A stretch of 64,000 nucleotides of DNA from Cerrena zonata (taxonomy: Eukaryota; Basidiomycota; Agaricomycetes; Polyporales; Cerrenaceae): the NCBI GenBank assembly GCA_038087015.1, contig JASBNA010000002.1:1364001-1428000 (forward strand), read 5' to 3'. A model generated the notes under the pieces. That model searched no databases. It saw only the letters and a list, made by a program, of their open reading frames with translations, and was not told where the DNA came from. Both the position numbers and the translations under genes were made by a program. Positions 28,590 to 29,887 of this stretch are shown in pieces (the stretch's first letter is position 1; each line of letters begins with the position of its first letter).

Positions 28590-28639
28590 GTATGTCCACC
28601 TCATTTACTTCCCATGATGCCCACTAACATGTCCCATAG
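28590..28639 (+). other. probable 5'-UTR intron
   Basis: A good donor (gtatgt) and acceptor (cccatag) lie 50 bases apart in the leader of the repeat-peptide gene. The size matches coding introns in this window. Confidence 0.45.
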
Positions 28640-28745: not shown

Positions 28746-29415
28746 ATGCTCTTCACTACTCGCAGCTTCCTTTTCTCTCTCTTGACGTTCCTCTTCGTCG
28801 GCACGGTAGCTTCGCTGCCCATGCCTATGCCCCTTCGTGTAAGTACCCACCAAATCCTCATTAAATGCTCCCACCTAATATTGTCATCTGCAGCGTTCCG
28901 TTGAAGCCATGGAGGCTCGGGAGCCAGCTCCTCTTGAAGTCATCCCCGCATACATCAAGCGTCAAGACACCAACACAACCCCAGCTGAGCTTGCCACCAA
29001 GGCCCCCAACGGTGTCATCGAGCCCTACAGCCGTCGTGAGGTTGAAGAACTCGAAAGACGCCAGGACACCAACACCACCCCAGCAGAACTCGCTACTAAG
29101 GCACCCACTGGTGTCATCGAACCTTACAAGCGTGATGTTGAGGAGCTCGAAGCCCGTCAAGACACCAACACCACCCCCGCGGAACTCGCCACCAAGGCAC
29201 CTAACGGTGTCATTGAACCCTACACTCGTCGTGACTTCGAAGAAGTTGACACCATTGCCAAACGTCAAGATACCAACACCACCCCCGCCGAGCTTGCTAC
29301 CAAGGCACCCAACGGTGTCATTGAACCTTACACCAAGAGGGTTTTCAAGCGCGGAGACATCATCCCCTCTGAGCTCGCTGTCAGGTCCATTGATGGTGTT
29401 GTTGAGTTGTATTAG
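28746..29415 (+). CDS. secreted repeat precursor with Kex2-type sites (KEP/RiPP-like)
   Basis: The product is 204 residues from two exons (intron 28839-28893). It begins with a clear signal peptide: MLFTTR, a hydrophobic core FLFSLLTFLFVGTVA, and likely cleavage near Ala-Ser. After a short pro-segment (EPAPLEVIPAYIKR) come four near-identical 22-residue units at residues 55-76, 88-109, 120-141 and 156-177. Each starts QDTNTTPAELATKAP and ends GVIEPY. A fifth, degenerate unit (GDIIPSELAVRSIDGVVELY) ends at the stop codon. Units are bounded by KR, RR or RxR-like sites and acidic linkers such as EVEELERR. Every main unit has one NTT glycosylation sequon. There is no Cys. This layout is known for fungal Kex2-processed precursors; the peptide's function is unknown and I do not recognise the sequence. 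A structural cell-surface repeat protein is an alternative. Confidence 0.88.
28963..29412 (+). repeat. tandem peptide-coding repeat, four copies plus one degenerate
   Basis: Copies lie at 28963-29028, 29062-29127, 29158-29223 and 29266-29331, with a degenerate copy at 29353-29412. Start-to-start spacing is 99, 96, 108 and 87 bases, always a multiple of three. The four main copies encode the same 22 residues apart from one Asn/Thr change in copy 2, while many third codon positions differ (for example gag/gaa, ctt/ctc, gcc/gct, atc/att). The linkers vary in length and sequence much more than the units. Confidence 0.95.
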
Positions 29416-29887
29416 ATTGCTGTACCTCCGCTTGGCAGTGGGTGAGTCCTTTGTCTTGTTGGTTCCTTGACATGAAACTGATGATCATCCCATGTTGTAC
29501 AGCATGTACCGATGAGTATCAAATGGAGAGCCGGCCAGTTCATGATTGTTTTGCTCTTTGCTTTAGTATCTTTTCCAGCACCCCTTTGTATGTTTAGAAG
29601 TGCTTGATGCCTCCGAAAGGCTCCAAGTTGCTTGCTCGCGGATGCTTTCCCTTTCCTCCGTTCGTTCCCCCCCCTCCATTTGCACCACTCTCCACTGCTT
29701 TTGCTCTAGGTAGCATCTGTACTGTCATTCTTTGCTGGGCAAACTTACAAATACACGTTGGTTCGAGATTGGGATAACCCACATTATTTCCACTGCGTGT
29801 CGTCTGACATGCGTAACATCCTTCAGATGACAAAAGGTATATTTATACATTTATACAAAGTGCAACGGAGTTTCTGCGTAGTTGTCG
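29416..29887. other. convergent intergenic region, no gene seen
   Basis: This holds the 3' regions of the repeat-peptide gene and the WD40 gene. A plausible 3'-UTR intron (gtgagtcctttg ... ttgtacag) follows the peptide gene's stop codon at about 29441-29502. No DUF3328/UstY-type or tyrosinase motif is present. Confidence 0.45.

Follow-up and report, generated by a model that had tools for sequence, protein, structure and literature searches.

The gene at positions 28746–29415, on the forward strand of a 64,000-nucleotide stretch of the Cerrena zonata genome (the window), encodes an additional member of a peptide-precursor family that is already known and widespread, and whose function is unexplained. 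Very probably it belongs, as a KEX2-processed repeat protein (KEP), to the family of C. cinerea KEP 497993 and would be processed accordingly. Taken together, the precursors of Cerrena zonata and Somion occarium show which parts are held (the repeat unit, the Arg sites, an N-terminal segment and a diverged last unit). Exact masses and a second peptide candidate can be derived from them, and they point to the conserved Tyr as the released C-terminus.

Gene structure and layout of the precursor

The coding region runs from an ATG at 28746 to a TAG stop at 29415 in two exons, with a spliced product of 204 amino acids. The intron is required by the frame because the unspliced open reading frame from 28746 ends after 52 amino acids, and the alignment with the Somion occarium homologue (P0001) runs through the splice junction (LR/R) and has a gap of 3 residues lying one residue beyond it. 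The features of the gene and precursor are as follows.

28746..28838, + strand: exon 1 (signal peptide and LPMPMPLR), from the sequence and its alignment to Somion occarium P0001
28746..28814, + strand: predicted signal peptide, residues 1-23, from a by-eye reading of the sequence
28839..28893, + strand: intron of 55 nt, GTAAGT...CTGCAG; homologue P0001 aligns across the junction
28894..29415, + strand: exon 2, to the TAG stop, from the sequence and reading frame
28921..28956, + strand: conserved N-terminal segment EPAPLEVIPAYI, candidate second peptide, with a single Arg before and KR after, from the motif count
28963..29028, + strand: peptide unit 1, QDTNTTPAELATKAPNGVIEPY, from the repeat search and unit comparison
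29029..29061, + strand: linker SRREVEELERR, from the sequence
29062..29127, + strand: peptide unit 2, N to T at position 16, from the repeat search and unit comparison
29128..29157, + strand: linker KRDVEELEAR, with a single Arg (EAR) ahead of unit 3, from the sequence
29158..29223, + strand: peptide unit 3, from the repeat search and unit comparison
29224..29265, + strand: linker TRRDFEEVDTIAKR, from the sequence
29266..29331, + strand: peptide unit 4, from the repeat search and unit comparison
29332..29352, + strand: linker TKRVFKR, from the sequence
29353..29412, + strand: fifth, diverged C-terminal unit GDIIPSELAVRSIDGVVELY, ending at the last residue; the P0001 counterpart is GDIIPSELPTRSIDGVIELI

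The N-terminus of the precursor is hydrophobic, with a plausible cleavage site (VAS/L) as judged by eye, and a hydrophobic stretch lies upstream of the first unit in 39 of the 49 unit-bearing proteins of the family by a crude count. Between the hydrophobic start and EPAPLEVIPAYI-KR lies a short segment, LPMPMPLRRSVEAMEAR. The precursor contains neither Cys nor Trp, and its linkers are acidic and vary in both length and sequence. An AlphaFold model of 168 residues of the exon 2 product, built with 10 homologues, has a mean pLDDT of 46.5 and a pTM of 0.10, and therefore no fold is seen; the low pLDDT comes from the shallow and repetitive input alignment of 11 sequences, and given that alignment the low-confidence model is as expected for an unfolded precursor. 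The Pfam matches of the precursor itself (TubC_N and others) all fall below the curated cut-offs and were dismissed as chance. Two GT...AG stretches, at 28590–28639 and 29442–29502, flank the coding region and, read by eye, may represent introns of the 5' and 3' untranslated regions.

The four 66-nt units encode the peptide QDTNTTPAELATKAP[N/T]GVIEPY, with three identical copies and T in place of N in copy 2. A repeat search delimited four 95-nt copies, with identities to the first copy of 69, 83 and 72%. Of the 22 codons in the 66-nt unit, 15 vary among the four copies, with a single amino-acid change, and pairwise pS ranges from 0.43 to 0.66 versus a pN of 0 to 0.02. With divergence so largely synonymous, the units have the look of old copies whose peptide sequence has been kept the same, not of a fresh duplication. 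The predicted products are 22–23 residues long after removal of the basic ends, with S or T remaining on three of the four.

This layout bears out much of an earlier note on the same DNA, made from the letters alone. The coordinates that it gave are exact, although the 55-nt intron within them was not mentioned, and its description of four near-identical 22-residue units ending in GVIEPY, with acidic linkers and no Cys, is accurate. The KR, RR or TKR boundaries that it described hold at most unit edges, but the site before unit 3 is a single Arg and not dibasic. Four units were correctly recognized, whereas the diverged fifth unit and the conserved N-terminal segment were missed. The repeats and sites support its central proposal, a short secreted peptide that would be released in several copies from each Kex2-processed precursor.

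Relatives and homology to KEP 497993

An initial homology search returned three relatives, and two profile searches, of the kind that the earlier note had recommended for the unit, raised the total to 52 (P0001–P0052; weakest P0052, E 0.015), a number that refers to the roughly 8000 candidates scored in each profile search. Twenty of the 52 are named and belong to 13 genera (Somion, Macrolepiota, Russula, Sparassis, Lentinula, Lactarius, Hymenopellis, Termitomyces, Tricholoma, Desarmillaria, Amanita, Agrocybe and Mycena), and the remaining 32 carry the sources jgi, ena, lgn or ncbi. Lineages were looked up for Somion (Polyporales, Cerrenaceae) and Russula (Russulales); the other named genera are presumably Agaricomycetes as well, and some of them we place in Agaricales. 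Within the 55.5 Mb Cerrena zonata assembly, three family queries found one locus (a lower bound) and no paralogues.

By sequence comparison, the repeat unit is a homologue of the KEP 497993 peptide of C. cinerea. Identity extends over 12 of 16 core positions, and the C. cinerea 18-mer aligns to the Cerrena zonata precursor with a score of 57, which none of 1000 shuffles reaches (maximum 41). A Termitomyces homologue (P0027) bridges the two, scoring 86 with the C. cinerea 18-mer and finding the Cerrena zonata gene in a six-frame search with an E value of 1.5e-8. The suggestion that the peptide may represent a new family is thus not supported, since its C. cinerea homologue is published and has been seen by mass spectrometry. 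The homologues of KEP 497993 that are named in the main text of Vogt et al. are ones that we take to be Agaricales.

According to Vogt et al. 2022 (PMC9769878), KEP 497993 gives rise to pyro-QIPAELPTKSINGNIEPY and its -K form, mainly in premature caps, and the peptides were detected as linear with the aid of synthetic standards. Knockout of the gene abolishes the peptides and leaves growth and fruiting normal in axenic culture, and the synthetic KEP peptides do not inhibit five bacterial strains (PMC9769878). The peptides persist in each kex knockout, which the authors read as redundancy, and at least 13 agaricomycete homologues are reported (PMC9769878). Among the main texts of the open-licence PMC literature, the sequence of the KEP 497993 peptide is printed in PMC9769878 alone. 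The unit was not seen in the main-text parts of Le Marquer 2019 (PMC6339444), although the term search used there could overlook it as part of a longer peptide, and the main-text parts of the open-licence KEP literature give no function for the family.

The family probably also corresponds to type G-1/P-2 (#7) of Umemura 2020 (PMC7329392), an assignment drawn from Pfam names, copy number and genera. In that survey, type G-1/P-2 comprises 64 KEPs from 62 strains and 49 genera and is the most widespread KEP type; nearly all of its genera are Basidiomycota (including Coprinopsis, Pleurotus, Hypsizygus, Panaeolus and Termitomyces), its members are Tyr-rich and occur at about one copy per genome, and DUF3328 is found within 15 genes of none of the 64 (PMC7329392). 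The 25 Pfam names listed (of 48 matched) for the 53 proteins formed by the 52 relatives and the Cerrena zonata precursor include three of the 27 on the G-1/P-2 list and none of the 55 names given for the other KEP types. The hypergeometric probability of this overlap is 2.6e-6 on the assumption that all Pfam names are equally likely, and the direct contrast between G-1/P-2 (3/27) and the other types (0/55) gives P = 0.033. The family is accordingly likely to be the KEP type present in the largest number of genera within that survey.

Candidate processing sites across the family

In the 53 proteins, a core pattern finds 152 units in 49; the exceptions are P0003, P0014, P0020 and P0024. The near-identical Lentinula sequences P0032–P0035 are counted separately. 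The pattern was derived from the sequences that it counts, as was the N-terminal motif discussed below, so that the counts of both are descriptive and not an independent test. An Arg lies no more than 12 residues upstream of all 152 units, and KR or RR occurs within this distance upstream of 131 and is absent there from 21. On the downstream side, 103 of the 152 units are followed by KR or RR within 8 residues, 26 by the C-terminus of the protein, 17 by a single Arg only and 6 by neither. Within the units KR or RR is found at 0 of 2251 positions, versus 228 of 3965 positions outside them, counted from residue 26 onward (Fisher P about 4e-46). In 97 of 152 cases the residue directly after the last Arg is Gln, and Cys is absent from all 152 units. 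In the Cerrena zonata precursor KR or RR precedes units 1, 2, 4 and 5, with the single Arg before unit 3, and KR or RR follows units 1–4. In Mycena P0043 all four units have single-Arg sites only. The earlier note had looked to homologues that keep the repeats and lose the basic sites as evidence against its proposal; the 53 proteins did not refute it on this ground, although some units have single-Arg sites only. Kex2-type processing of the precursor is thus well supported by the arrangement of sites and repeats.

The 97 distinct 16-residue units carry E3 in 89, K7 in 77, G11 in 97, and Y in 85 or F in 12 at position 16, in a pattern that fixes P1, restricts positions 3, 7 and 16, and allows only Y or F at the last of these. 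Because 26 of the 152 units end exactly at the C-terminus of the protein, the mature peptide probably ends at the Tyr or Phe of the unit, and a following S, T or K would be trimmed in part, to judge from the two C. cinerea forms.

Ahead of the units, 20 of 44 proteins have a motif like PAPLEVIPAYIKR (0.13 expected from shuffles), and a looser form is present in 24 of the 44, versus 0.34 in shuffles; the motif was drawn by eye from these same proteins, near-identical Lentinula sequences account for four of the 20, and the other 9 of the 53 proteins were excluded as having too little sequence before the first unit. A different, earlier pattern matched 19 of 38. The segment ends in Tyr shortly ahead of a basic site, as the units do, and EPAPLEVIPAY may be a second peptide product. 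It receives no mention in the main-text parts of the two KEP papers (PMC9769878, PMC7329392).

Genomic setting and composition of the assembly

Among the window neighbours matched by Pfam, ESF1 and a WD40 match (weak and under the cut-off) adjoin the gene, whereas MoaE, the ribosomal proteins S9 and L4, a Rad51-type gene, a D-2-hydroxyacid dehydrogenase and histidine biosynthesis lie further out. The scan covered 37 stretches of the window's 108 open reading frames; many gave no match at all, and none of the 37 matched UstYa or another peptide-modifying family. Likewise, none of the 45 UstYa matches in the genome, counted exon by exon and thus a lower bound, lies on the contig that holds the window (C2). 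Groups of UstYa matches occur on contigs C11 and C124. Three pairs there share the same scores, arranged as mirror images, which points to a UstYa cluster on duplicated or haplotype contigs.

Enzymes that could process the precursor are encoded on contigs with host-like GC, namely a kexin gene in separate exons on C3 (at least one in the genome), S10 carboxypeptidases, and one DPPIV_N gene on C19. The assembly seems, from GC content and gene structure, to be a mix with ascomycete-yeast-like sequence. In the stretches examined from contigs C23, C24, C43, C61 and C67, GC content is 0.31–0.37 (0.48 in the window) and long genes run without interruption (KEX2, a DPPIV_N gene and S10 peptidases); the STE2 match on a low-GC contig is split over two frames. 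Matches on such contigs are best not attributed to the mushroom, and the kexin on C24 and the DPPIV_N gene on C43 were set aside as host genes for their GC (0.31–0.37). A third DPPIV_N match lies on C13 (GC 0.40).

Proposed maturation and role of the peptides

The precursor would enter the secretory pathway unfolded, kexin would cleave the linkers after Arg, and a Kex1-type carboxypeptidase would then take off the basic ends. The N-terminal Gln of each unit could then close to pyroglutamate, and homologues of glutaminyl cyclase are reported from Basidiomycota (PMC5241404). For Cerrena zonata, both the cleavage and the pyroglutamate are inferred. The predicted products are linear peptides of 22–23 residues, pGlu-DTNTTPAELATKAP[N/T]GVIEPY, three of which would carry one more residue (S or T), and the linker and end peptides would also be released. 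The calculated monoisotopic masses with pyroglutamate are 2399.149 for unit 1 with S, 2299.122 for unit 2, 2413.165 for units 3 and 4 with T, and 2312.117 for a form trimmed to Tyr; unmodified, the last unit would have a mass of 2144.136 and EPAPLEVIPAYI one of 1310.712.

With respect to role, we tentatively prefer a conserved extracellular signal, sent either within the fungus or to its neighbours, because the unit is alike across orders and the gene was found in a single copy; we know of no receptor for the unit peptide. A stronger version, in which the peptide is an ancient mushroom hormone with one precursor gene per genome, a unit near-constant across orders, a conserved receptor and EPAPLEVIPAY as a companion peptide, is rather unlikely. 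The signal role is placed roughly ahead of a function as defence or interaction factors acting on other organisms (bacteria, animals, plants or competing fungi), which is conceivable though doubtful. The unit is alike across Polyporales, Russulales and the genera that we place in Agaricales, and arms-race peptides usually diversify; both points count against an interaction role, as does the lack of antibacterial activity of synthetic KEP peptides against the five strains (PMC9769878). Vogt et al. nevertheless favour biotic interactions on the grounds that kep knockouts look normal when grown axenically, and by their account characterised KEP peptides mostly act in such interactions (PMC9769878). 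The same absence of a visible phenotype in the KEP 497993 knockout in axenic culture speaks against the signal role (PMC9769878).

The remaining readings are all improbable. Secreted repeat proteins are common in fungal walls, and the precursor might work intact or as larger pieces in the wall or surface coat. Rep1 of Ustilago maydis yields peptides that are attached to hyphae (PMC6339444) and form amyloid-like fibrils on the surface (PMC9769878). Such a use is nonetheless unlikely in view of the Arg upstream of every unit and the absence of KR or RR inside them, the lack of a predicted fold, and the processing of the homologous C. cinerea precursor to free peptides (PMC9769878). Still less likely is cyclisation of the units through Tyr by UstYa-type enzymes to give a dikaritin-type RiPP, one of the uses raised in the earlier note. 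The frequent Tyr at the unit end, where the pattern allows Tyr or Phe alone, and the 45 UstYa matches in the genome would suit it, but a dikaritin cluster was rejected because none of these exon-by-exon matches (a lower bound) falls on contig C2 and none of the 37 stretches scanned in the window matched UstYa; moreover, none of the 64 G-1/P-2 proteins has a DUF3328 neighbour (PMC7329392), and the C. cinerea peptides are linear by comparison with synthetic standards (PMC9769878). An alpha-type pheromone-like peptide sensed by an STE2-type receptor has a comparably slim chance; mating pheromones were another of the uses listed in the earlier note. The Kex2 repeat architecture and an STE2 match in the assembly (E 4.7e-47) are in line with it, but the four units begin with QD (QDTN), leaving no XA or XP (STE13) dipeptide after their sites, and there is no Trp. 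The only matching STE2 locus is on C23 (GC 0.36–0.37 in two stretches versus 0.48 in the window), which looks yeast-like, and was set aside as a host receptor; in a survey of 1357 fungal genomes, STE2-like receptors were found in Ascomycota only (PMC12842992).

Comparison with known systems

The linear, processed and secreted product favoured here can be compared with three related systems. The precursor of Somion occarium (P0001) is 65% identical over 100% of the query and has its parts in the same order, including the C-terminal unit GDIIPSELPTRSIDGVIELI. It differs in alternating two kinds of unit, ADVNTTPAEIPTKAPAGQIEPY-like and QDVNNLPAEIATKAPTGQIEPY-like, and in ending with Ile where the Cerrena zonata precursor ends with Tyr. 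The first kind of unit in P0001 starts with Ala, which is unable to form pyroglutamate, and the other with Gln; one precursor would therefore yield both an unblocked and a blocked peptide.

With type G-1/P-2, the 53-protein family has in common the chance Pfam names TubC_N, DUF2188 and SspK, and the Cerrena zonata gene resembles that type in occurring at about one copy per genome without a UstYa (DUF3328) neighbour.

Three kexins are reported from C. cinerea by Vogt et al. (PMC9769878), compared with at least one found at host-like GC in Cerrena zonata. The product of KEP 497993 is a linear pyroglutamyl peptide by mass spectrometry, while that of Cerrena zonata is predicted from its sequence, the comparison being one of units. 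The N-terminal stretch of the Cerrena zonata unit is longer (QDTNTT versus QI). KEP 497993 is likewise a secreted multi-copy precursor whose unit starts with Gln, and the two peptides have in common P-A-E-L-x-T-K-x-x-N-G-x-I-E-P-Y.
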